Shown: one piece after another, positions 638-18,017 of the stretch
Layout: each line of letters begins with the position of its first letter
Position numbering within the stretch: the stretch's first letter is position 1
Source of the DNA: a virus
Virus record (IMG/VR): IMGVR_UViG_3300037882_001597
Span: 1-29,336 of that record
Length of the DNA: 29,336 bases
Reading direction: 5' to 3' (one strand)
Made by a program: the position numbers and the translations under genes
The notes under the pieces: model-generated
Databases searched by the model: none
Seen by the model: only the letters and a program-made list of their open reading frames with translations
What the model was told of the DNA's origin: nothing

Positions 638-873
638 GACTCCCCCGCTTTCTCACTCGGCAAAATCTCAAGGTGCGACAGCAAAACCCCACCGGTTTTT
701 CCGACGATAGAAACGACCGCGGCACCGTGCCCAAGCATCCAGGCCTCAGAGCGTGTCACTGTATCCAGCGGAGGCACGCTTGGTATCGGCGGCAATATCG
801 GCCAGTACCGAACTTTCGTTCCGACCGGATAGACAGCGTTCCAATCTTCTGCCGCAAGCCCGCGTTTAGCCAC
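634..873 (-). CDS. Small conserved-type phage protein (79 aa)
   Basis: I chose the GTG at 873, giving MAKRGLAAEDWNAVYPVG, rather than the longer open frame from 918. The GTG follows a GAGG site by six bases and overlaps the stop of the upstream gene by a few bases, as elsewhere in this operon. The pattern 'W..YPVGT.VRYWP...ALGHG..VV.V.G..GGV.L.HLE' is a type I associate with small accessory proteins of many tailed phages, with no known biochemical role. It is predicted cytoplasmic, without a membrane segment or metal ligands. Confidence 0.6.
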   Translation of the reverse strand: MAKRGLAAEDWNAVYPVGTKVRYWPILPPIPSVPPLDTVTRSEAWMLGHGAAVVSIVGKTGGVLLSHLEILPSEKAGES

Positions 874-1390
874 GTTCCACCTCACTCGGCGGCGGGACTT
901 TACCGGAAAATCCCACAAGCGCTCGCTCCTGTGCGCCGCACGCTTTGCAGATGACTCGACCGTCGATGAAGTACTCCTCGTGCTCCCCTTTCCGATACGG
1001 GTGCGGACACGGGTCGGAGAGAAGTGGTGCCGGTTCTTTCTCAGCGCAAGATGTGACAGCGGGCGGCGGCACGGGGATTGCTGCTAGGCGGTCGTAGGCT
1101 TCCGCGACACGTTCCACATCACGCTCAGACAACGTCGAGCCAATCCCGTACGCCTCAACAGCTAGCATCCGAATATCCCGCGCGCGCTGGTTGGCGAGCT
1201 GGGCGCGGAGTTGCCTAAGCTCGGTCCGCAGCTTGTTGGCTTGTGCCGTCGTGGCGTCGTAAAGGGCGCGCTCTTTTTGCAATTCGTCCCGCGTCCCCGC
1301 GAGTTCGTCGAGGTAGAGATGCGCTTTTTGTGTCGCTTGGGTGTATCCAGGTTTTGCCAACCACTCCCGCTCTTTTTCGATGTCGATCAT
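866..1390 (-). CDS. Coiled-coil protein with C-terminal zinc knuckle
   Basis: The ATG at 1390 (MIDIEKEREWL) has an AAAGGAG site seven bases upstream. The longer open frame reads back through the tRNA gene and is rejected. Of 174 residues, about 30-75 form a charged coiled coil (DELQKERALYDATTAQAN onward). A proline-rich linker follows, then a putative zinc site with C128, H130, C148 and C151 (CPH...CKAC). The fold suggests a nucleic-acid or protein adaptor, but I do not recognise a family with a known role. It is the first gene after the tRNA and ends overlapping the next gene. Confidence 0.65.
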   Translation of the reverse strand: MIDIEKEREWLAKPGYTQATQKAHLYLDELAGTRDELQKERALYDATTAQANKLRTELRQLRAQLANQRARDIRMLAVEAYGIGSTLSERDVERVAEAYDRLAAIPVPPPAVTSCAEKEPAPLLSDPCPHPYRKGEHEEYFIDGRVICKACGAQERALVGFSGKVPPPSEVERG

Positions 1391-1412
1391 TTGAGTTCTC
1401 CTTTTTTTGAGT

Positions 1413-1485
1413 TGGTGGGGCGTCCAGGAATCGAACCTGGGACCTACGCCTAAAAGGCAGCTCGCTACCACTGCGCCAACGCCCC
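1413..1485 (-). tRNA. Phage tRNA, anticodon ambiguous (UUU-Lys or UUA)
   Basis: Read leftward from 1485 the sequence folds as a tRNA. It has a perfect 7-bp acceptor stem (GGGGCGT with ACGCCCC), an A discriminator and an encoded CCA. The T arm is perfect (CCAGG, TTCGATT, CCTGG), and the D arm has a normal AGTGGTA loop with three good pairs. The body is 70 nt before CCA, one base short. If the anticodon stem is CTGCC/CGTAG (four pairs including one G-T, one mismatch), the anticodon is UUA, complementary to the UAA stop. If the loop is CTTTTAG, it is UUU (Lys), but the stem then has only three pairs. The gene is certainly tRNA-like; decoding identity is unresolved. Confidence 0.8.
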
Positions 1486-1509
1486 AAAATTGCCCCGTAT
1501 CGCCGGGGC
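1486..1509 (-). terminator. Terminator-like hairpin abutting the tRNA
   Basis: On the minus strand GCCCCG, loop GCGATA, CGGGGC forms a 6-bp GC stem (1492-1509), followed at once by AATTTT, and the tRNA 5' end comes next. It lies about 55 bases beyond the stop of the DUF669-type gene. It could attenuate the operon or serve as a processing signal for the tRNA. The U-run is short (four), so termination may be partial. Confidence 0.5.
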
Positions 1510-1563
1510 CGCGCGTGTCCAATTCAGATCCGGCGAGTCGGACAAGTCCAGCGCCAGGCTAAC

Positions 1564-2058
1564 TCACTTCCCCCTCGCTGCCCAAGCGGGCGGGCCATTT
1601 GCGGCGGGCTTAGCCCGTACTGGCGCCGTTCGCGGGATGGTTGACGGGATTCCGCTTTCACTCTTCGCGAAATCGACCACCTTGTTTGAAGGGTCCGGGT
1701 ATTGCTCGTTTCCGGGCTTGATCCCGAATTTAACCTTCAATTTCTTTCCGGCGAGTTGTTCTGGGCTTCGGATTCGCGTTTCACCTACGGCGAGCGCGAT
1801 CTTAGCCAGCTGTTCCAGGCCGATGCGAACCGCTTCGGAGTTCTCGCTCCGAAGTGTGATGTTTCCGAACACGACCGCGCCCTGATGGGTAGGTCCGACA
1901 ACATCGAAGCGCACGCTAAGCATCTCGCCGTTGTTCTTCGTGCCCTTTGCTTCGGCGCTATGGATCGCGCATTCGTACCACCCGGCCGGGATCGGCTGGT
2001 AGTTTCGATCCTTGATCTCAACAGTGTTTGCATCAAATTCAGTGTCAAAAAAGCTCAT
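1564..2058 (-). CDS. DUF669-type putative single-strand DNA-binding protein
   Basis: This 164-residue protein matches the DUF669 pattern of phage recombination modules: a short acidic N-terminus, 'PIPAGWYECAIHSAEAKGTK' at about 22-41, then 'NGEMLSVRFDVVGP...GAVVFGNITL' and 'LEQLAKIALAVG'. The C-terminus is disordered (PPAWAARGK). Such proteins lie beside Sak-type annealases and are thought to be OB-fold ssDNA-binding proteins acting in phage DNA recombination or replication. The ATG at 2058 is chosen because an AAGGG site precedes it and the longer frame overlaps the ATPase gene throughout. It lies four bases after the Sak4-like gene, which supports a shared role. DNA binding is inferred, not shown. 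Confidence 0.75.
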   Translation of the reverse strand: MSFFDTEFDANTVEIKDRNYQPIPAGWYECAIHSAEAKGTKNNGEMLSVRFDVVGPTHQGAVVFGNITLRSENSEAVRIGLEQLAKIALAVGETRIRSPEQLAGKKLKVKFGIKPGNEQYPDPSNKVVDFAKSESGIPSTIPRTAPVRAKPAANGPPAWAARGK

Positions 2059-2062
2059 ACGT

Positions 2063-2743
2063 TTACCCTTGTCCTGTGATTTTGTTGATGATGGCGCCGA
2101 GGTCCGGCGCTTCCCATGTTTCCAGTTTGCCGCTTCGGTCCTTCGCGATCCATTGCGCGTCGGTAGTCGTAAGTAGCCCGCGAACCAACTCCCCGTCCGC
2201 TCCCTTTTCGACTCGCAAGGCCAACACCTCATCAAAAAAGTACGGGAGCGATTGTCCTGCGGACTTGCCGGGCGCCGACGGCGACCACAAGATCCGCCCA
2301 TTTTCGTCCGTCACCTTCTCCGCTTTCGCTGAGAAATAAACGTGCTTTCCTGGGATGTCGCGGAACCCGCGAACGATTTCTTGCATGTCGTCCGAAAGTT
2401 GCCCGTAAGCCCGGCGAGGGTCCTTTGCGGTCGCTTTCGCCGCTGCTAACACTGTCTCCGCGATCTCACTAATCGAGTCCAGCGCCACGCTTTCAAACTG
2501 ACTCGCCTCCTCCGACTCTACCAGCCAGCGCCGAGCGTCGCGTAGCGTTGCAGCATCGGTGATCTCGATAACCGGTAGGTCAAACTCCGAAAGCGACAAG
2601 AGGCCGCTTTCAGCGCTTAGGATTACCGGATTCGGTAGCGTGCTGATTAGTGTTGTCTTCCCTGCTCCAGCTTGCCCATAAACGAGCATCTTGACGCCGT
2701 TCAAGCGCCCTAGCTCGCGCGTGCTTTTCAATGATATTTCCAT
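2063..2743 (-). CDS. Sak4-like RecA-fold ATPase (AAA_24 type)
   Basis: A 226-residue P-loop ATPase with the Walker A motif GQAGAGKT at 23-30, a Walker B-like strand FESVALDS (acidic D89), and a later segment PGKHVYFSAKAEKVTDENG typical of the phage nucleotide-binding AAA_24/Sak4 group. Sak4 proteins are short RecA-core annealases that work with a phage SSB in single-strand annealing, and a DUF669-type gene follows directly. The ATG at 2743 has an AAGGGG site seven bases upstream; a GTG at 2746 directly before it is also possible. It overlaps or abuts the stop of the upstream gene. The family call is by motif and context; annealing activity is inferred. Confidence 0.8.
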   Translation of the reverse strand: MEISLKSTRELGRLNGVKMLVYGQAGAGKTTLISTLPNPVILSAESGLLSLSEFDLPVIEITDAATLRDARRWLVESEEASQFESVALDSISEIAETVLAAAKATAKDPRRAYGQLSDDMQEIVRGFRDIPGKHVYFSAKAEKVTDENGRILWSPSAPGKSAGQSLPYFFDEVLALRVEKGADGELVRGLLTTTDAQWIAKDRSGKLETWEAPDLGAIINKITGQG

Positions 2744-3123
2744 CACTTATCCCCTTTTTTGATTTCCGAGAAGCTCGGACGCCCGGGCTTCCTGGTTATT
2801 GCGCCCTCGATCTTGATCCGGACACCCTCCGGCGCCGTCTTATACGCGGCCTTGTTTAGTTCGGGCCTCCACCGCACGAAAGTCGAAAGCGTTTCGTGGT
2901 CGAGTCCCGTCGCGAGTAACGCGTCGCGATCTAGAGATTCGGTGAGCGACCATGATATTTCTAGACCCTCAACCTTTTCGCGCCCCTGATAGTCTACCGC
3001 TTTCCCAGCGCGGCGCGCGATCTCATCCTCAATCTCACGGCGCCGAGTCTGTGCCCCCAGCTCCGCGCGCTTCTGTTCGCGCCACATCTCAGCCAAAAAC
3101 TCAATTGATACTTCGTTTTTCAT
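2743..3123 (-). CDS. Conserved-type partner of the recombination ATPase
   Basis: This 126-residue protein has a long basic/acidic helix (about 10-45, WREQKRAELGAQTRRREIED). A compact beta-rich part follows, containing 'LSTFVRWRPELNKAAYKTAP' and ending 'ITRKPGRPSFSEIKKGDK'. Small proteins of this build often sit directly upstream of the Sak4/DUF669 pair in phage recombination cassettes, but I know no demonstrated function. The start at ATG 3123 has an AAAGGGA site, and the stop overlaps the ATPase start, so the two are translationally coupled. It could be an accessory factor or DNA-binding adaptor; this is inference from position. Confidence 0.65.
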   Translation of the reverse strand: MKNEVSIEFLAEMWREQKRAELGAQTRRREIEDEIARRAGKAVDYQGREKVEGLEISWSLTESLDRDALLATGLDHETLSTFVRWRPELNKAAYKTAPEGVRIKIEGAITRKPGRPSFSEIKKGDK

Positions 3124-3156
3124 TCTTCGTCCCTTTCGTTGGTCCCGATTAGAGTC

Positions 3157-3717
3157 TCATTCCTTCAGCTCGTCAACAGTTTTTCCAAGCTCTCCCCACA
3201 ATAATTCTAGCCCACCAGGTTTTCCCGCTTTCGCTCGCTTTTTCTCCCCATCAACTAGACCGCGCTCAAATTCATCTCGCGTCACGTCTAGAAGCTGTCG
3301 GCGCTCCCTCAGCCAGTTCGCTGGCATTGTTTGGCGGAATTCGTACATCGCTTCCGCGCATCGTTTCGTGAGCGTTCGGACGTCTACTGACATCATTTTG
3401 GCGATCTGAGCATCTGTCGCTTGTGACTTGCCGGGGACCCCTTCGATAGCGTCCGCTGTGTCATCAGCGATATCTAGCGCACAATGACCAAAAAACTCCC
3501 CCTCTAACCATGCTCTCATTGACTCTACGGCGTCCCCTTCATGGTCGCGGGACCACTTGGCGATCCCGCCGATGATGTGATAACGGCAGAGTACCCGCTC
3601 ACATAACGCACGGCCAGCCATTCTATCCTCGCGACCGTCGATGCAGTCGCCGCGGGTCATGAGGGGAACCGTGCGGTCTAACGTGGAGACACCGAAAAGG
3701 GGGAGGGATTTGGTCAT
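3157..3717 (-). CDS. Hypothetical early protein with possible HTH segment
   Basis: The protein has 186 residues from the ATG at 3717, which shares bases with the TAA of the upstream gene (TAATG). There is no clear ribosome site, so coupling probably drives translation. The middle, 'ATDAQIAKMMSVDVRTLTKR', looks like a helix-turn-helix (D.QIAK...V...TLTKR) and is followed by a helical C-terminus rich in Lys/Glu. Several Cys and His occur in the first third (ALCERVLCRYH, FGHCALD) without a clean metal-site spacing. A DNA-binding regulator of phage expression is one possibility. I do not recognise the family. Confidence 0.6.
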   Translation of the reverse strand: MTKSLPLFGVSTLDRTVPLMTRGDCIDGREDRMAGRALCERVLCRYHIIGGIAKWSRDHEGDAVESMRAWLEGEFFGHCALDIADDTADAIEGVPGKSQATDAQIAKMMSVDVRTLTKRCAEAMYEFRQTMPANWLRERRQLLDVTRDEFERGLVDGEKKRAKAGKPGGLELLWGELGKTVDELKE

Positions 3718-4007
3718 TAACCGCACCAATCCGGAAGAAGTCTTTCTGCTAGCTCGTAAACCTTCCCAAGGATCGCCCCGAAAAGTTTGGCCTCCAAGGC
3801 AAAGCAGAAGTGAACACACTCATTTGTGTGCCAGTTTGAGCAGCCGTCCCATCGTGTGCCTCCGCTCACCAGTAAGCACCCATCTCTCCAAATCTCCCAA
3901 TCAAGATCGCACTCGTTCCCGTTCAGTCCGTACCTCAACTCAGGCGAATCAGAGCAGACGGATAGCCCGCACTGCCCATGCTCCGCCTCTAGCTTGTCGA
4001 CGATCAC
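3717..4007 (-). CDS. Small Cys/Trp-rich hypothetical protein (96 aa)
   Basis: I chose the GTG at 4007 (MIVDKLEAEHGQCG), which overlaps the preceding TGA and follows a GGAG site by five bases. The longer reading from 4115 would lie inside the upstream gene. The 96 residues contain seven cysteines and four tryptophans, with the stretch 'DLDWEIWRDGCLLVSGGTRWDG'. The alternating hydrophobic pattern suggests a beta sheet. Neither an enzyme motif nor a clear zinc spacing is evident, and the function is unknown. Confidence 0.6.
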   Translation of the reverse strand: MIVDKLEAEHGQCGLSVCSDSPELRYGLNGNECDLDWEIWRDGCLLVSGGTRWDGCSNWHTNECVHFCFALEAKLFGAILGKVYELAERLLPDWCG

Positions 4008-4567
4008 TTCAACTCCGCAAGCTGCTTTTCGAGCGCTAGAACGTGGTCTCGGTAGGCGATACAGCGGTAATGTATCGGAGCTAGACCATCGCGGTGATGC
4101 TCTGCGACACTCCATTTGCTTTGCAGGTTACCAAACCGACGGCAGGTCCCACCGTTCTCCACCCAGTGAGTCAACCTCACAATCTCCCCCGTCTCCGGAT
4201 GCCTCGCTTCATTGATCGCCATCGTCCGGAGCTTTCCGGTTGTCACGTCAACTCCTTCGTCATCGCGGAATTTGTAGAGACGGGAGAAGATGCGTTTGGC
4301 TCGGTCGGAGCTTCCGAGAACGAAACCACGCTCAAGGTTTGTGGTCGGATGCCATGGGTAATTGTCGCAAACGCACGGAATTCCGCCGGGCGCATATACA
4401 ACGTGAGCCATCTCCCGCGTCCCATCCAACCGCTCTAGCTCGTTCTCGCCGAGAGGTTTGCTTGACGTGTTTAGCGTGAAAGTCCCGGTTACCGTGACAG
4501 GACCAAACTTCTCACCGTTGACGTCAAACGTAACGTCGGACTCTTTTACGTCGATTTCGATGATCAT
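4004..4567 (-). CDS. Hypothetical early protein (187 aa)
   Basis: This unrecognised 187-residue protein starts MIIEIDVKESDVTFDVNGEK. Its N-terminal half is beta-rich, while the C-terminal part is helical and ends in a Leu-rich helix (DHVLALEKQLAELK). The ATG at 4567 has GGGAGG five bases upstream and shares bases with the previous stop (ATGA). The open frame continues seven codons upstream to another ATG, which lacks this support. It is the largest unnamed protein of the early operon; its neighbours give no functional hint beyond co-transcription. Confidence 0.65.
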   Translation of the reverse strand: MIIEIDVKESDVTFDVNGEKFGPVTVTGTFTLNTSSKPLGENELERLDGTREMAHVVYAPGGIPCVCDNYPWHPTTNLERGFVLGSSDRAKRIFSRLYKFRDDEGVDVTTGKLRTMAINEARHPETGEIVRLTHWVENGGTCRRFGNLQSKWSVAEHHRDGLAPIHYRCIAYRDHVLALEKQLAELK

Positions 4568-4779
4568 ACAATCCTCCCACATTCGCACTTGATTGAATCA
4601 ACCCAATAAGGCGGACACTCCGGACACTCCGCGCGACCTTCCGGGGTTGTCGCCGAGCACTCAATCACCGTTCCGTTTAGTCGTGGCATCCCGTAACCCG
4701 ATGGGGGAACGGCGATTCCGCAAACACAACGCAACGGAACCTCTTCGCCATTCTGGTCGAATTCAGAAAATGTAATCAT
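4564..4779 (-). CDS. Small zinc-ribbon-like protein (71 aa)
   Basis: The 71-residue protein starts at ATG 4779 after AAAGGGTGAGCAA. Cysteine pairs occur as RCVCG (about 18-20), CPEC (about 53-56) and KCECG (about 65-67), with a further lone Cys. This pattern could hold one or two zinc ions, as in small rubredoxin/zinc-ribbon folds. Its start overlaps the stop of the ribbon-helix-helix-like gene, and its own stop overlaps the next start. A nucleic-acid or protein-binding adaptor is plausible; no family is recognised. Confidence 0.65.
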   Translation of the reverse strand: MITFSEFDQNGEEVPLRCVCGIAVPPSGYGMPRLNGTVIECSATTPEGRAECPECPPYWVDSIKCECGRIV

Positions 4780-4949
4780 TTGCTCACCCTTTCTAAGTAG
4801 TCTCTGATAGCCGCTGATAGACAGCCCGGGCCACCCGCCGCTTCTATCCATCGTTTCTTTTGCTCTTCGGTGCACCGGATGGCGATTCGCGCCATTGGTT
4901 CGGTGTTAGGTGGTCTCCCGACCTTTTTTGCTGTCACTTTATGTCCCAC
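4776..4949 (-). CDS. Short ribbon-helix-helix-like DNA-binding protein (57 aa)
   Basis: Reading leftward from GTG 4949 gives 57 residues: MGHKVTAKKVGRPPNTEPM, then ARIAIRCTEEQKKRWIEA, and an end at RDYLERVSK. A basic 'KKVGRPP' arm, a short beta strand 'ARIAIRCT' and two amphipathic helices is the build of CopG/Arc or MobC-type ribbon-helix-helix proteins. AGAGGAAG precedes the GTG, and the frame is closed just upstream, so the start is well bounded (a second GTG lies at 4937). The stop shares bases with the next ATG (ATGA). It may repress phage promoters or bind the origin; the fold call is by pattern only. Confidence 0.6.
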   Translation of the reverse strand: MGHKVTAKKVGRPPNTEPMARIAIRCTEEQKKRWIEAAGGPGCLSAAIRDYLERVSK

Positions 4950-5000
4950 GTTTTCACTTCCTCTCGCGCCTCATAGGCGTCATGGTGTTGTCTCTTTCTT

Positions 5001-5234
5001 TCACTTACCGGCCTCGATTTCGTCGCAGAGTTTGAGGATGCGGTGGGCGAATAGGCGGGCGTCGTTAGGAACGAGCCAGGCGTTCGGTGCCGTGCGGTCG
5101 AGTTCGGCGATTAGAGCGTCGGCGAGCGCCCTAGAGGCTTCGGCAATATCCGAACCGCTGACGCTACTGTCAATGCGCGCAACCAGCACAGAAAACGCCC
5201 GCGCCGCAAACTCATCTCGACGTGAAAGTGTCAT
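5001..5234 (-). CDS. Small helical hypothetical protein (77 aa)
   Basis: This 77-residue all-helical protein (MTLSRRDEFAARAFSVLVAR) starts at ATG 5234 with a GAGGAG site four bases upstream and overlaps the preceding TGA. The longer frame to 5342 lies inside the upstream gene and is not used. The composition is Ala/Leu/Arg-rich with no Cys pairs. The 'MTLSRRDEFAARA...' type is a common short accessory ORF in phage early operons. Function is unknown. Confidence 0.65.
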   Translation of the reverse strand: MTLSRRDEFAARAFSVLVARIDSSVSGSDIAEASRALADALIAELDRTAPNAWLVPNDARLFAHRILKLCDEIEAGK

Positions 5235-5569
5235 TTCTCTCCTCTTTTCTTCGTTTGGACAAAACGCTCGACGATTTCGATTTCTCGACGTGAGAGGCCG
5301 TGGACTCCGCAGTCGTCCCATTCGGGATGGTTGCAAATGCACCCGAAGTCACCCCATCCCAGGCTGCGCGCGTAGCGAATGGCGTCTAGTAGTGTCACGA
5401 AAACGGCGTCGGGATTGTGAAGCTCTGGGTAACTGCCTTTGCTGTAGACCGCATAGGCGCCGTAAACGCCGGGAACGTTGGCACGGTAGGCCGCTTCAAT
5501 AGCCCCAAGCGCCAACGGCCTGTAAGGGGCGCCGGTCATCTGTTTGATGTGGTCGGGTGGGTGGGTCAT
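5231..5569 (-). CDS. First gene of the leftward early operon, hypothetical
   Basis: The 112-residue protein starts MTHPPDHIKQMTG at ATG 5569 after an AAAGGA site. An in-frame Met at 5626 is too close to the predicted transcription start to be used. It contains 'GVYGAYAVYSKGSYPELHNP', then 'CICNHPEWDDCGVHGLSRRE', where two Cys, two His and a third Cys could bind metal, and a basic C-terminus. It is the promoter-proximal gene of the leftward operon and so probably expressed early and strongly. I do not recognise the family. Confidence 0.65.
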   Translation of the reverse strand: MTHPPDHIKQMTGAPYRPLALGAIEAAYRANVPGVYGAYAVYSKGSYPELHNPDAVFVTLLDAIRYARSLGWGDFGCICNHPEWDDCGVHGLSRREIEIVERFVQTKKRGEK

Positions 5570-5586
5570 TCGTTGTTTCCTTTCCC

Positions 5587-5605
5587 GGCCGCGTCCGTCG
5601 CGGCC
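5587..5605 (-). promoter_or_regulatory. GC-rich leader hairpin of the early operon
   Basis: GGCCGCG and CGCGGCC form a perfect 7-bp inverted repeat around a 5-base loop, located just after the predicted start of transcription and 17 bases before the first gene. It is followed by the AAAGGA ribosome site, not by a U-run. It could stabilise the mRNA 5' end or be a protein-binding site. Confidence 0.45.
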
Positions 5606-5614
5606 AGTGAGGTG

Positions 5615-5644
5615 AATACACCACATCTATCGTGCACACGTCAA
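5615..5644 (-). promoter_or_regulatory. Sigma-70-like promoter for the leftward early operon
   Basis: On the minus strand TTGACG (-35, 5639-5644) is separated by 18 bases from TGTATT (-10, 5615-5620). This is five of six and four of six matches to the consensus. Transcription would begin near 5608, about 39 bases before the first start codon. No other early-operon site of this quality was found. Confidence 0.55.
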
Positions 5645-5810
5645 TATCTTTTTCGTGGGTGCGTTAATTTAGTTTGGGGTTTATGTCTGGTTTTGTGTGA
5701 TGATGTAATGAAAGGTGGGTTTTTGAGTGACTGATACAGAGTGGAACCCTGATAAAGCGTAGCGCCCCAGGATATGTGCGTGCGGCCTGGTACAGGCAAG
5801 CGTAAGCGCA

Positions 5811-5830
5811 AATGCACGATTAAGTGCATT
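5811..5830. repeat. Perfect 7-bp inverted repeat AATGCAC/GTGCATT
   Basis: AATGCAC, six-base spacer GATTAA, GTGCATT. It is symmetric and AT-rich at its ends, like a phage repressor operator or an RNA hairpin. It is one of seven inverted repeats in the divergent region. Confidence 0.6.
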
Positions 5831-5834
5831 GGGG

Positions 5835-5865
5835 TATTTACAAGGGCTTTTTGCCATGGTAAATA
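5835..5865. repeat. Long imperfect hairpin TATTTAC/GTAAATA
   Basis: A perfect 7-bp outer stem (5835-5841 with 5859-5865) encloses an inner GGC, TTTTT, GCC stem-loop. As RNA it would be a two-part hairpin; as DNA it could extrude as a cruciform. Confidence 0.55.
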
Positions 5866-5916
5866 GAGGATAGGCATTGACCGCTTCGCCGGTCTGCGCC
5901 CATGTATCCGTTTCAC

Positions 5917-5933
5917 ACCCCCTTTACGGGGGT
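5917..5933. repeat. GC hairpin ACCCCC/GGGGGT
   Basis: A perfect 6-bp stem with a TTTAC loop. No U-run follows in either direction, so it is not a typical intrinsic terminator. Confidence 0.55.
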
Positions 5934-6047
5934 TACGGCACATACTGTTCCTCTTTCAGGGGTCCCTGTTCCGGTCAGTAATTATTACAGCCAAAAAAGG
6001 CTGGAAAATGAGGAAAAGGGGTAAAATAAAAAAGGGAGGGTCATTAA

Positions 6048-6740
6048 ATGAAGAAACCCGCTAAAAATGAGGGGTTAAGAGCCTTGATTACTGCTAGGTC
6101 GTTCGCGAAACGACGGCGATCTGAGGCTGAGAAAAAGACAGTGGGGGGCCTCAAAGATGCTCTTGAGAATTTGGCCGATAGGTCGGCCATGGTTATCGGG
6201 AGGGAGATCCGAGCGGCCATAGCTAAGGATGCGGAACTTTTTGATAACGATCCAACCGCTGAGCCAGCTCTAAGAAAGAAGCTCCAAGCCGATGTTTGGG
6301 CTGAACTGATTCATGATTTGACGGCGACAATCGGACCGATTCCCGCAGAGCTACCCGAACCCGGGTTTTTCCGCGAGGCCGAAAAGGTCGAGAAGCACGG
6401 GACGTGGAAAACAGCCGTGCTAGACCTACGGCACATCAAACGATTCGGCGAACGGCGTTGCGAGGGGTGCCAGAAATACACGGAGCTTTTTGACCGAGTA
6501 TCCTGGAAGATCCCTCACGGTGAGCGCATCTGGCACGAGAAGTGCCGACCAAAGGAAAAGCCACCTAATAACGGCGAAAAGGCCAAGAGCGGCCTACGGG
6601 CTTTCGAGCTTATGGAGCATCACATAAAGAAACACGGCGAGCGCAATTGCTCAACCTGTGGACAGCCCTTAGAGCTTGGCCAAATGGTGCTGTGGAAGTT
6701 TGGGTCGAAGAATGTGGCCCATGAACGGTGCGGGTTGTGA
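6048..6740 (+). CDS. Tandem CxxC/HxxC zinc-knuckle protein
   Basis: This 230-residue protein opens the rightward operon, with GGGAGGG seven bases before the ATG. The N-terminus is very basic (KRRRSEAEKK at 21-30) and the middle is helical. The C-terminus has two copies of one motif: C138-x2-C141-x21-H163-x2-C166 and C201-x2-C204-x20-H225-x2-C228. Both follow the pattern 'HIK..GER.C..C....EL...V.WK.......HE.C'. Each copy should bind one zinc ion. It is not an HNH nuclease, since the HNH catalytic order is absent. The position, directly after the structured control region and before the terminase genes, fits a DNA-binding late regulator or packaging accessory factor. I know no named family that matches, so function is inferred only. 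Confidence 0.75.
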   Translation: MKKPAKNEGLRALITARSFAKRRRSEAEKKTVGGLKDALENLADRSAMVIGREIRAAIAKDAELFDNDPTAEPALRKKLQADVWAELIHDLTATIGPIPAELPEPGFFREAEKVEKHGTWKTAVLDLRHIKRFGERRCEGCQKYTELFDRVSWKIPHGERIWHEKCRPKEKPPNNGEKAKSGLRAFELMEHHIKKHGERNCSTCGQPLELGQMVLWKFGSKNVAHERCGL

Positions 6741-7219
6741 CTACCTCGATAGTGCTCCCCGATGATGCTCCTAGAGAGCAAGCCAGGGAGATGCGCCTTC
6801 AGGGCAAGGGGTACACGGAGATCGCTAGGGAGCTATGCGTCACACCTGAACGGGTTTACGCTTGGTGCGAGGATTCGTTTGCCTTGCCCGGTAAGCATCG
6901 CGCCCTAGTGACAGAGAGGGGCATTAGCGTTGCGAGGCTCGAAAGGGCACTACAGACGGCACTTAAGCTGGCCGCGGACGATGGTGAGGACCCTAGAGTT
7001 AGGGTGGCGGCGATAAGTCAGATCGTGGCGATTGAGGGGCGCCGTGCCCGTCTCCTCGGGTTAGATTCCCCGGAGCGACTTGAGGCGATAGTCGCTAACC
7101 TAGACGACGAATCAAAATCCATGCCAATGACTCCGCAGAGGGCGAAGGAGATCATGATGCGGAATTTTGGGCTAGTTGGACCGAAACTTGCAAAGGGCGA
7201 AGATGTCGAATCCAAGTGA
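6737..7219 (+). CDS. HTH protein, probable small terminase subunit
   Basis: The protein has 160 residues from GTG 6737, which overlaps the upstream TGA (GTGA); a GTG at 6728 is the alternative start. Residues about 12-45 form a homeodomain-like helix-turn-helix (REQAREMRLQGKGYTEIAR, then VTPERVYAWCED), followed by a helical region and a C-terminal tail. A short HTH protein a few genes upstream of a large terminase usually is the small subunit, which recognises the packaging site and presents DNA to the large subunit. The gene order supports this, but other small-terminase features cannot be verified by eye. A transcription regulator is the alternative. Confidence 0.6.
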   Translation: MTTSIVLPDDAPREQAREMRLQGKGYTEIARELCVTPERVYAWCEDSFALPGKHRALVTERGISVARLERALQTALKLAADDGEDPRVRVAAISQIVAIEGRRARLLGLDSPERLEAIVANLDDESKSMPMTPQRAKEIMMRNFGLVGPKLAKGEDVESK

Positions 7220-7960: not shown

Positions 7961-8217
7961 ACCACATCGACGCAATCGAGCGATGGCCGACGACGGTCGC
8001 TCTATGCGAGGGCCTAGCTCTCCCTTGCGAGATTGACGATTTGTTGACCTACACGGTGGGCGGAGCCAATAATGCTACGCTTCACTTTTTGGGGGCCGCT
8101 AAACGTGCTAGGTTCCGTTTGGGTGTTCGGGTTGAGCGTTCGCGGTTCGATCATCATTCGGTGGATCGGTTTCATAAGACCGAGATTCCGATGGACTGTG
8201 GGTCCAGGTTTGATTGA
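7957..8217 (+). CDS. Small hypothetical protein (86 aa)
   Basis: The GTG start at 7957 overlaps the upstream TGA. The 86-residue protein starts MNHIDAIERWPTTVALCEGL; its C-terminal half is basic and His/Arg-rich (ERSRFDHHSVDRFHKTEIP). It precedes the large terminase gene by 43 bases. It may be a packaging accessory protein by position, but nothing in the sequence identifies it. Confidence 0.55.
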   Translation: MNHIDAIERWPTTVALCEGLALPCEIDDLLTYTVGGANNATLHFLGAAKRARFRLGVRVERSRFDHHSVDRFHKTEIPMDCGSRFD

Positions 8218-8241
8218 ATCGGCCCCATAACGTATCATAAT
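8214..8241 (+). promoter_or_regulatory. Possible promoter before the terminase gene
   Basis: TTGAAT (8214-8219), a 16-base spacer and CATAAT (8236-8241). Matches are four and five of six. It ends 19 bases before the chosen terminase start. The spacer is one base short of the optimum. Confidence 0.3.
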
Positions 8242-8260
8242 CGGTGATAACCTCGCGAAA

Positions 8261-9589
8261 GTGAGGGGATTGATTGAGATTTTGCCAGCAAACGAGGGAT
8301 TAGCTCTCAAATGCTGGCTTTCTCAGTTTTATCCGTTTCAGCGGGAATGGGTCACAGATCCGCGCTTGCTTGGCGCCCTGGTCAAATGTCGCCAGATCGG
8401 AGGATCGTTCTCGTTCGGCGGTTTCGCGACGCTTAACGGTGCCTTCTTCGGCGAGAGCACGGTCCTGGTGTCGCGTGCCGAGCCTGAGGCGATTGACCTC
8501 CTACAGGTCGCCAGGAAGCACGCTATTGCTCTCCATGAGATGGGTAGCGAATGGGCTAAGATAGTCAGCCCGCCTAACCAACTCAGCTTTAAGATGGCTT
8601 CGGGGGCTGAGATAAGGGCGACCACTTCTAAGGCCGCTGGGCGAGGCTTTAGCGGTAACGTTGTCCTGGACGAGTTTGCCTACCACGACCGTCCGGATGA
8701 GGTGTGGGACGCCGCTCTAGCCGCTACTACACACGGCTACAAGTGCCGCATCCTCTCTACCCCTAACGGCGTCGGCGATCTCTTTCATCAGCTTTGCACG
8801 GAACTTGCAAAGGAGGAGCCGTCAAGTCCGGCTGGGTGGAAGCTGTACAAGACGACTATCCATGACGCGATTCGCGACGGAATGGACATTGACATGGCCA
8901 AGGCTTGGGAGATGGCGCGGAACGATCCGCGCGTTTTCGCCCAGCTCTTCGAGTGCTCATTTATTGACGGCGACCTCCAGTATCTCCCTCATGATATGAT
9001 TATGAGGGCCTCCACGGGTATCATACCAAATGGCTCACAATCGCGAACCTTCGGCGGCATCGACATCGGCGAGAGTCGAGACAAGACGGTCCTAAGCATC
9101 ATCCAAGGCACTCGCGACGGTTACGGAGTTAAGCATATCGAGGTCCACGGTAGGACCGATGACATACTAATCGCTAACCTAATTGACCAGGCCTACAACG
9201 TGCACAAATGCGCCCGGGTCGCTATCGATGCCACTGGCATGGGTACATTTCCGGTCCAAGCGGCTCAGCGAAAGTTCCCTGCCCTAGAGGCCATTTGGTT
9301 CACCAACCAGGTAAAGGAGGAATTGGCGACGCGCCTTTACCAAGCGCTCTCATCGGGAAAACTTGCTTTGCCGAAGCCGTCTCCGGGCTCTCAGCTACAT
9401 GACGATCTCGCTTCTATCAAGCGGCTAGTAACCAGCGCCGGAAATGTCCGATTCGATGCGCCGCGCACCTCAAAAGGCCACGCTGATACGGCTTGGGCGC
9501 TCATGCTTGCGCTACACGCCACCGAATACGGGGAAGCTGCCGGGGCATATACTCGGCTGAAAGGGCTAAGGTCAACTCGTGCTAGCTAG
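8261..9589 (+). CDS. Terminase large subunit (Mu gp28-like)
   Basis: The DNA-packaging motor and nuclease, 442 residues. The N-terminal ATPase has a degenerate Walker A (KCRQIGGS, about 42-49), Walker B VVLDE (134-138) with catalytic Glu, and coupling motif STPNG (166-170). The C-terminal RNase H-like nuclease has its three acidic residues at D268 (GGIDIGESRDKT), D323 (VAIDATGMG) and D409 (GHADTAWAL). The length is within the usual range for this family, slightly short. The start is uncertain: GTG 8261 is used, with GAGGGG just inside the frame, so a slightly later TTG is possible. The portal gene overlaps its 3' end by 11 bases. It acts at the portal vertex of the prohead. Confidence 0.9.
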   Translation: MRGLIEILPANEGLALKCWLSQFYPFQREWVTDPRLLGALVKCRQIGGSFSFGGFATLNGAFFGESTVLVSRAEPEAIDLLQVARKHAIALHEMGSEWAKIVSPPNQLSFKMASGAEIRATTSKAAGRGFSGNVVLDEFAYHDRPDEVWDAALAATTHGYKCRILSTPNGVGDLFHQLCTELAKEEPSSPAGWKLYKTTIHDAIRDGMDIDMAKAWEMARNDPRVFAQLFECSFIDGDLQYLPHDMIMRASTGIIPNGSQSRTFGGIDIGESRDKTVLSIIQGTRDGYGVKHIEVHGRTDDILIANLIDQAYNVHKCARVAIDATGMGTFPVQAAQRKFPALEAIWFTNQVKEELATRLYQALSSGKLALPKPSPGSQLHDDLASIKRLVTSAGNVRFDAPRTSKGHADTAWALMLALHATEYGEAAGAYTRLKGLRSTRAS

Positions 9590-10910
9590 AGACTTGCGAA
9601 ATCGCGTCACGCAATGGTCACCGGGGATTTCCATCCCTACTAGCATCTCCACGATTAGGAGCGCTCAAAGGCAAGCGCGGGACGGTCGATTTGCGGCAGG
9701 GGCTCTCATTTGTGAAACGATGATGAGCGATGACGCCTATGCGTCCGCTCTAAACGGCGCGATTGATGCTATCGTCGGCGCGAATTTCGCCATGGTTCCA
9801 GAGACTGGGCCGGACGGGAAACCGCTCAAAAAGTCTCAAAAGCTCGCTGAAATACTCGCTAAAGAGTGGAACGCCGTCGTTCCTGAAGACGAGCTAATAG
9901 CTTTCATCGCTTGGCGTCTTGGGTTAGGGCAAGCCGTCGGGACGCTCGATTGGTCCACGGCTCGCGCTGGCTGGAAACCGACTTTCCGATGCCTCCATCC
10001 TCGCTACCTTGAGTATCGAGACAGCGAGGAGCGCTACATTTATGAAGCAAAGGACGGAACCAAAGAAGCTACTCCCGGCGATGGCAAGTGGGTACTTTGG
10101 GGTGACCGTCACTCTTGGCAGTCGTCGGCGCTATGTGCGCTAGGTGAGCTTTTCTACGGTAAGCGCCAAACAATTCGCGACAATTTGCGATATTTGGAGC
10201 GCCATGGCCTTCCGATTATCCTGGCAGGCGTCCCCGCGTTCGATCTCGATACCGAGAGTCAGGCCCAGTTCATTGCCGATCTCGAAAAGCTCGGCTCCGA
10301 TACCACGCTAGCCCTCCCAACGCATCTAAACCAAGAGGGCGCGGCTTATACGGCTGACATTCTAGAGGCCAAAGATCAGTCCTACGAGGCGTTCAAGGCC
10401 TTTCTGGAGCGCGGTGACCGGAAGATCCAAATCTTCTTTGCCGGATCTAACGCTGGCTCTGAGCTTACCGGCTCAGTCGGAAGCCTAGCGGCCTCTCAGG
10501 ATAGCTCTGACGGTTCCAAGGGCATTGCCGCCAATTGGTCTCGGCGCCTTTCGACGGTGCTACGTGAGCAGATTGTTAAACCGTGGGTTGGCCTAGCATA
10601 TGACCGCGATCCGGCGATCTGCCCCTACCCCCAGTACCAAGTCAATCCGCCGGACGAAACGGCCAAGTTTGACGGGTGGTCGAAACTCGCCGGAACCGTT
10701 AGCGCGTGGACTCTCGCGGGCTACCAAATCGACAACATCGTCGATCTGGCCGGTGAAATGGGCCTTATCATTAGCGAAGCGCCGAAAGAGGAAACCGATG
10801 CGACCGCACTTCCACCCTCAGGTTCTAGCGACCCTAAGAAGCCACAAGCGAATAGCGATAGTGGGAGGCCCCAAGACGGGCAAAACGACCCTAGCGAGCC
10901 TAACGACTAA
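9579..10910 (+). CDS. Portal protein (DUF935, Mu gp29-like)
   Basis: This 443-residue protein is of the DUF935 family, the portal of Mu-like phages, forming the dodecameric ring at one capsid vertex through which DNA enters and to which the neck attaches. Supporting stretches are 'ALNGAIDAIVGANFAMVPE', the 'LGLGQAVGTLDW' to 'PRYLEYRD' segment, and 'ERGDRKIQIFFAGSNAGSEL' with 'ANWSRRLSTVLREQIVKPWV' near the end. GTG 9579 follows AAGG by eight bases and overlaps the terminase end. The last 40 residues (ALPPSGSSDPKKPQANSDSG and beyond) are disordered, and their DNA also encodes the start of the P-loop gene in the +1 frame. Confidence 0.9.
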   Translation: MLARDLRNRVTQWSPGISIPTSISTIRSAQRQARDGRFAAGALICETMMSDDAYASALNGAIDAIVGANFAMVPETGPDGKPLKKSQKLAEILAKEWNAVVPEDELIAFIAWRLGLGQAVGTLDWSTARAGWKPTFRCLHPRYLEYRDSEERYIYEAKDGTKEATPGDGKWVLWGDRHSWQSSALCALGELFYGKRQTIRDNLRYLERHGLPIILAGVPAFDLDTESQAQFIADLEKLGSDTTLALPTHLNQEGAAYTADILEAKDQSYEAFKAFLERGDRKIQIFFAGSNAGSELTGSVGSLAASQDSSDGSKGIAANWSRRLSTVLREQIVKPWVGLAYDRDPAICPYPQYQVNPPDETAKFDGWSKLAGTVSAWTLAGYQIDNIVDLAGEMGLIISEAPKEETDATALPPSGSSDPKKPQANSDSGRPQDGQNDPSEPND

Positions 10911-16866: not shown

Positions 16867-17384
16867 CCGTCATAGCCGCAATATCCGACGGGAAAAAGGT
16901 CTACATGGGCGGAGATTCCGCTCTTTCGACCGGAGATCACGTTTTCCTTTCTGCCGATCCTAAGGTGTTCGAACGAGATGGGATCGTCGTTGGATTTTGC
17001 GGCTCAATTCTGTTCGGTGAGCTTGTAGCTCTGACTAAGTTCCCGGCCAAGGGAAAAGACGTTGATTTGTGGGTTCGCGGTGACGTGTGCGAGGCCCTAA
17101 GAATGGCCGCCATTCGACGAGGGCGTGACATATCGGACGGCGACGACTCGGAGGCAATACTCGGGATAGGCGGTCAAATCTACGTCATCACCTCGGGGCC
17201 CGTAGCATACCGGGTGCGCGGATCTTACGCGGCAATCGGCAGCGGCGGACCATGGGCGGAAGGCTCGCTATACTCAACCGATGGCGGCGGAATGAGCATC
17301 AAAGAACGCATCGTGACGGCGCTAGAGGCGGCTGAGATTCACTGCTCCGCCGTTCGTTCGCCGTGGGCGTTTGCGGGCCTCTAG
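16863..17384 (+). CDS. HslV/proteasome-beta-like Ntn hydrolase
   Basis: The 173-residue protein begins MTVIAAISDGKKVYMGGDSA. After removal of the first Met, Thr1 is N-terminal, Asp17 lies in GGDSA and Lys33 in ADPKVF. These are the positions of the catalytic Thr, Asp and Lys in HslV and proteasome beta subunits. A GSGG motif at about 125-128 matches the conserved Ser/Gly near the active site. The enzyme is therefore predicted to be an active N-terminal-threonine hydrolase, probably a peptidase ring. No HslU-type ATPase is in the window, so substrates and unfolding partner are unknown. It ends the coupled accessory operon (ATGA overlap at 16863). Confidence 0.8.
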   Translation: MTVIAAISDGKKVYMGGDSALSTGDHVFLSADPKVFERDGIVVGFCGSILFGELVALTKFPAKGKDVDLWVRGDVCEALRMAAIRRGRDISDGDDSEAILGIGGQIYVITSGPVAYRVRGSYAAIGSGGPWAEGSLYSTDGGGMSIKERIVTALEAAEIHCSAVRSPWAFAGL

Positions 17385-17418
17385 CCATACCTTCCGCCGA
17401 TCCTGATAGCTTGCTCGT

Positions 17419-17607
17419 ATGGGCGAGCTATTAGCGTTTTTGTCTATCGCCAAAGAGGTGCGCCTTATCCTTATCGAGGTAGGGCGACTCATTGAGGCGG
17501 GACAAGCCGAAGAGGCGGCGGAAGTCGCTCGCGCGCGTGCTCATGGCCTAGCGGCGGGGCGAGCGGCCTATAATGCGTCTAAGAGCGCCGGAAAGGCGCG
17601 CAAGTGA
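17419..17607 (+). CDS. Small helical hypothetical protein (62 aa)
   Basis: The 62-residue protein begins MGELLAFLSIAKEVRLILIE. It has an Ala/Glu-rich middle and a basic end (SKSAGKARK). The first half is amphipathic or hydrophobic enough to associate with membrane, but there is no clean transmembrane helix. The ribosome site is weak. Its stop overlaps the GTG of the connector gene (GTGA). Function unknown. Confidence 0.55.
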   Translation: MGELLAFLSIAKEVRLILIEVGRLIEAGQAEEAAEVARARAHGLAAGRAAYNASKSAGKARK

Positions 17608-18017
17608 GCCAATACGCGACGGAGCAACAATTCCGCGATCTCGGGCTCTCAGACGGGGCACTAGAGGACGTGACGTCTAGCGTCATTGATATCCATCTTG
17701 AGATGGCGTCCGGATTCGCCGACTCCTACCTTTCGAACCGCTACGCAATCCCGATTTCGCCCATCCCCGGCGCTCTTGTGAAGTGTGTCGTGGATATCGC
17801 GGTCTATGAAGTCCTTCTCCGGCGCGGCTACAACCCGGAGACCTATGACACGAATTATCGCGTCCGCTATGAGGATGCCAAGTCATGGCTAGAGGCGATC
17901 TATAATCGAGACGCCGATCTTCCCGGCGTCGCCGAATTGACGACGGTTTCACCTAGCGGCGCAGCCCGGGCTCCCCGTGTTCTTACTCGTCCCGAAAGGG
18001 GCTGGTATGACGATTAG
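17604..18017 (+). CDS. Head-tail connector (DUF1320, Mu gp36-like)
   Basis: The 137-residue protein matches the Mu gp36/DUF1320 family: 'YATEQQFRDLGLSDGAL', 'SGFADSYLSNRYAIPISPIPG', 'LVKCVVDIAVYEVLLRRGYN', 'RYEDAKSWLEAI'. These proteins form a ring below the portal that joins head and tail. GTG 17604 overlaps the upstream TGA. Its last bases overlap the tail-completion gene by 11. It opens the tail module, after the accessory genes. Confidence 0.8.
   Translation: MSQYATEQQFRDLGLSDGALEDVTSSVIDIHLEMASGFADSYLSNRYAIPISPIPGALVKCVVDIAVYEVLLRRGYNPETYDTNYRVRYEDAKSWLEAIYNRDADLPGVAELTTVSPSGAARAPRVLTRPERGWYDD

Follow-up and report, generated by a model that had tools for sequence, protein, structure and literature searches.

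In the divergent promoter/operator (immunity-type) regions of tailed phages, back-to-back operons are served by two promoters with dyad symmetric sites, and such regions undergo rapid exchange between otherwise near-identical phages. The lambda pR'/Q late promoter, with its promoter-proximal antitermination signals, heads a very long packaging/virion operon and has extra elements around it (PMC6606751). The put RNA of the lambdoid phage HK022, a defined RNA serving early operons, provides hairpins in the nascent leader (PMC9378689), whilst the large, ornate phage-associated RNAs GOLLD and ROOL are intergenic and multi-branched (PMC12286853). Here we compare with these systems a hairpin-rich stretch from a 29,336-base virus sequence, the whole of which (probably a fragment) we refer to as the window. 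On balance, the stretch is probably a fast-evolving divergent promoter/operator region in an exchangeable cassette and not a new kind of RNA.

The stretch lies between two oppositely oriented blocks of genes. The leftward block (minus-strand genes, 866 to 5626) encodes a Sak4-type annealing ATPase, a single-strand binding protein and a DUF7173 protein. The rightward block (plus-strand genes from 6048) encodes TerS, TerL, a Mu-type portal, a head protease, the major capsid protein, a tail sheath, a tape measure and baseplate proteins, forming an operon of >23 kb with the hairpin stretch at its head. The first leftward gene probably starts at 5569 on the minus strand, and ORFs, start sites and codon composition delimit a divergent intergenic control region at 5570-6047, a layout found also in two related viral contigs, L167 and L168. 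The initial annotation had described the stretch as non-coding, and rightly so: the sole longer ORF inside it (5641-5943, minus strand) has no family match and was rejected as a gene, its GC3 being 0.47 against ~0.6 in genes.

The first rightward gene (6048-6740, plus strand) is preceded by a ribosome-binding site, GGGAGG (6034-6039, plus strand), with the ATG at 6048 sitting 8 bases on. Its product carries two Cys-x-x-Cys...His-x-x-Cys (zinc-type) modules, has no Pfam or PHROG match and has a homologue in L167 only (33% identical). The adjacent gene encodes the terminase small subunit, TerS (6728-7219, plus strand; PF06056, phrog_645), which is 47% identical to its counterpart in L167 and 41% to that in L168. 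Further to the left, ARAGORN reports a tRNA gene (1413-1485, minus strand) with the anticodon TTA, which would read UAA, a stop codon; shifting the register gives a lysine anticodon instead. Because TAA ends many genes in the window, there is no full reassignment of UAA.

Every one of the seven inverted repeats listed in the initial annotation was found where it had placed them. In order, these are GCCTG/CAGGC (5785-5797), AATGCAC/GTGCATT (5811-5830), TATTTAC/GTAAATA (5835-5841 and 5859-5865, with an inner GGC/GCC), GACCG/CGGTC (5879-5894), ACCCCC/GGGGGT (5917-5933), CAGGG/CCCTG (5957-5968) and CAGCC/GGCTG (5988-6003). Counting strict hairpins (stems of at least 5 Watson-Crick pairs) per 219-base window gave 5 for the stretch itself; elsewhere the average is 1.99, a count of 5 being reached in 8 of 583 windows. 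Under a Markov model of the region, 5 hairpins were attained in 0.8% of cases. Strict stems take up 56 bases, the highest value of all, the maximum in other windows of the record being 52. This hairpin content makes it highly improbable that the repeats are a chance cluster with no function beyond the promoter described below, as does the strength of the long-range helix P1 (also below); the points for chance are that the record contains comparable fold z-scores in other places and that the corresponding regions of L167 and of a further contig, L169, are not unusually structured.

Terminators had been discounted as an explanation of the repeats, and we agree: no GC-rich hairpin with a T-run, that is, no intrinsic terminator, lies within 5785-6003 on the plus or the minus strand, and CAGCC/GGCTG, the last of the repeats, is not followed by a T-run on the plus strand. 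The hairpin ACACCCCCTTTACGGGGGTTACGG was likened to one in L030 and L014. Both are Sak4-bearing contigs in which clustered GTAAC repeats, together with a C5-TTTA-G5 hairpin (L014 2161-2390, L030 1990-2110, minus strand), lie immediately downstream of a long gene of replication type; the hairpin resembles window 5915-5938. Homology was not accepted, because unrelated cyanophages also carry C5-TTTA-G5 hairpins of a similar kind.

Evidence for a rightward promoter comes from the third repeat. The top sigma70-like plus-strand score of the region (9.38, in the 90th-95th percentile range for top scores per 420 nt) falls at 5837-5865, coinciding with the dyad TATTTAC/GTAAATA; AATGCAC/GTGCATT ends 6 bases ahead of the -35 element. 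The proposed core consists of a -35 element, TTTACA (5837-5842, 5/6 matches), a 17-base spacer, a TG extension and a weak -10 element, TAAATA (5860-5865, 3/6 matches to TATAAT). A consensus scanner at strict settings returned no promoter in the region. TATTTAC/GTAAATA would most simply represent the -35 and -10 region of a rightward promoter; its symmetry, which is not kept in relatives, may additionally provide an operator on the core. For the leftward genes, the candidate promoter is TTGACG-18-TGTATT (5615-5644, minus strand), with a consensus scan score of 7.71 that is weak alone; L168 has a stronger leftward promoter site at 1115.

Searching 50,697 phage records revealed no DNA similarity to the region, and neither the region nor the first rightward gene had a relative in the phage collection. 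Short peptide patterns from the first rightward gene likewise yielded no relatives, its L167 homologue being found later via TerL. Relatives among viral contigs were gathered through a TerL alignment. Just two of these, L167 and L168, are syntenic: their TerL proteins are 60% identical to that of the window, they have portal, protease, capsid and TerS in common with it, and their gap is likewise flanked by leftward genes and the rightward operon. L169 (TerL 51%) was rejected, its divergent gap having no comparable promoter or structure, and simple gene calling in further loci revealed no other clearly syntenic region. TerL relatives in assembled genomes (L221-L228) fall mostly in Planctomycetota and Verrucomicrobiota bins, the best (43%) being from Phycisphaerales, and this sequence relationship hints at a host group in Planctomycetota/Verrucomicrobiota. 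Separately, 48 bases of the window (10844-10891) are 92% identical to L181 5057-5104, the phages being otherwise distant.

The three gaps align only in GGGTATTkACA plus GTA 17 bases on and are otherwise unlike. The shared block is GGGTATTTACA in the window (5832-5842, plus strand) and GGGTATTGACA in both L167 and L168, and GGGTATTgACA / GGGTATTkACA is the sole 11-mer common to all three gaps at no more than 1 mismatch (0 of 3000 shuffled triplets). In each gap this block forms the -35 end of the best rightward promoter, with scores of 9.4 in the window, 8.5 in L167 and 13.3 in L168. All the spacers are 17 bases (TTTACA-17-TAAATA in the window, TTGACA-17-TAATTG in L167 and TTGACA-17-TATGGT in L168) and the -10 element is weak in two of the three, TAAATA in the window and TAATTG in L167. 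A sigma70-like site is kept at the same place ahead of the same operon in the relatives (1336 in L167, 1203 in L168). The proposal of a promoter draws on location, score and conservation in two relatives, which have their late genes in common.

An operator array was one of the possibilities raised in the initial annotation. This suggestion gains from the site between divergent operons, from the promoter-like core under one repeat, the core alone being shared with relatives, and from the presence of dyads above chance near the promoter. It loses, however, in that the arm sequences of the dyads revealed no half-site recurring from one to the next; such a half-site would be seen in an array for one regulator, so its absence counts against this form of the idea.

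The computed fold adds a feature that had escaped earlier notice. A long-range helix, P1, pairs 5728-5752 (5' arm, plus strand; mean pair probabilities 0.87-0.98) with 5956-5977 (3' arm, plus strand) and closes the repeats into one compact structure whose branches adjoin nearly without linkers. The 3' arm contains CAGGG/CCCTG. With its two-base loop, CAGGG-GT-CCCTG (5957-5968) is not possible as an RNA hairpin; in the computed fold its halves pair instead with CCCTGA (5747-5752) and ACAG (5736-5739). The P1 duplex (-26.6 kcal/mol) was equalled in 0.03% of base shuffles and at 18 of 4154 positions along the window, or at 2.6% of places once the 9 spacings tried are allowed for, and is unlikely to have arisen by chance.

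Such a fold raises the possibility of a structured RNA of ~250-290 bases (5717-6004). It would be a phage RNA in its own right or else the leader of the late operon, would start upstream of 5728, with P1 enclosing the adjoining branches, and could influence RNA polymerase in the manner of an antitermination leader. In addition to P1 and the position of the stretch ahead of so long an operon, the stability of the fold speaks for an RNA: 5728-5977, limits picked after the fold was seen, has z = -4.0 on the plus strand (0 of 300 shuffles), and its helices are well defined (positional entropy 0.39 versus a window mean of 0.96). However, the minus strand folds nearly as well (z = -3.7), the region as a whole (5627-6047) reaches just -1.5 on the plus strand, and other windows of the record, largely coding, also attain z = -4.0, so that stability alone does not establish an RNA. 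Strong folding is also seen at 17378-17627 and 8128-8502 of the window, stretches that are partly intergenic (z about -3.4 to -4.0).

G-U pairs are also few for an RNA, making up 4 of the 84 pairs, compared with 14.9 +/- 3.2% in 300 shuffles (none as low) and 12.5% elsewhere in the record (2 of 117 windows as low). This scarcity fits symmetry kept in duplex DNA and favours DNA without deciding the matter, a low share going also with any very stable fold, RNA included. Moreover, the promoter-like core common to the relatives sits in the middle of the fold, and a transcript starting near 5872 would lack the 5' half of the modelled RNA.

Comparison with other loci points the same way. A covariance model, for which the window sequence with its fold was the sole input, recovered the window alone from 228 loci, save for a match in L014 (13.9 bits); this was rejected because its alignment is patchy and depends on GTAACG repeats and a single C5/G5 hairpin. 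With filters off, the model found nothing in the homologous gaps of L167 and L168; exact structured hairpin patterns gave no match in the viral contigs, and no Rfam family exceeded its gathering threshold in the region, the only hit elsewhere in the window being to tRNA. The initial annotation, which had also proposed a structured RNA or leader, had made stem conservation in relatives the measure of its proposal: the strong single-sequence fold stands, but no relative has a homologue of it, and no stems are conserved in those available, which are rather distant and may lie too far off to show compensatory changes. All in all, we regard a structured RNA as unlikely. That it should be of an undescribed type, a compact phage RNA of ~250 bases closed by a long-range helix and overlapping the late promoter, as the modelled fold would have it, we consider quite unlikely; were it so, the RNA would be a leader or a separate regulator of the packaging/virion operon, in phages perhaps of Planctomycetota/Verrucomicrobiota.

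Further clues come from comparing the two relatives with each other. In L167 and L168, 7.5 kb of late genes match at 98.7% identity and the far left at 90%, but ~2 kb (L167 457-2497, L168 159-2116) is unrelated at the DNA level. Within this segment lie the control region, the first rightward gene and the half of TerS that binds DNA, the N-terminal one, whilst the C-terminal half of TerS is retained across the exchange. Co-exchange of this kind is expected of sites that have to fit the proteins binding them, whether a regulator or TerS, and the unrelated 2 kb is in keeping with a specificity or immunity cassette. If general, the joint exchange of the control region and the DNA-binding half of TerS between near-identical phages would point to a regulatory or packaging-specificity cassette.

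The same exchange could be read as the mark of a terminase recognition site (pac or cos), with TerS binding the dyads to start DNA packaging, and the stretch does lie close to the TerS gene. The cassette contains other genes too, though, and no cos-like or repeat-array signature was recognised, making this decidedly unlikely. A replication origin, another early suggestion, would suit the dyads and a cumulative GC skew minimum at ~5400, but the turn in skew coincides with the change in gene direction, which explains it with no need of an origin, and iterons were not found. With nothing beyond the skew turn to commend it, an origin is extremely unlikely.

The divergent promoter/operator reading that we favour builds on the place of the stretch between operons, on dyads above chance and on a shared promoter-like block with nothing else conserved; the transcription start, protein binding and regulation are what we infer. 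The rightward promoter at ~5837-5865 would start the packaging and virion transcript near 5872, giving a leader of ~175 bases, and a second promoter near 5615-5644 would serve the leftward replication-type genes. The Watson-Crick dyads round the rightward promoter would most likely be binding sites for cassette-specific regulators, the dyad on the promoter core being positioned to block RNA polymerase. Dyads downstream of 5872 would be transcribed and may also act as leader hairpins; GACCG/CGGTC, ACCCCC/GGGGGT and CAGCC/GGCTG all fall in this predicted 5' leader. Two further observations count against this reading: no regulator was identified in the window, and L167 and L168 do not keep the perfect dyad that covers the promoter. 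What emerges, for the packaging/virion operon of a poorly known phage group, is a candidate promoter with its control region, together with a caution that a highly convincing single-sequence RNA fold can centre on a promoter.

How, then, does the locus compare with the described systems? Like GOLLD and ROOL, it is intergenic and has a multi-branched computed fold, but that fold is much smaller and is without an Rfam match or conserved relatives (PMC12286853). With the HK022 put RNA it shares hairpins in the leader of a phage operon, a predicted leader in this case, the two having been compared through Rfam only, with no match (PMC9378689). The resemblance to lambda pR'/Q is one of layout only: a promoter, with extra elements round it, heading a very long packaging/virion operon (PMC6606751), no Q-like protein or pause element having been identified at the locus. 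Unlike immunity-type regions, the window has no repressor identified alongside, its dyads differ in sequence from each other and its gap would control apparent replication and late genes. In common with those regions, however, it has back-to-back operons, two promoters (candidates here) and dyad symmetric sites, and the difference between L167 and L168 mirrors their rapid exchange.
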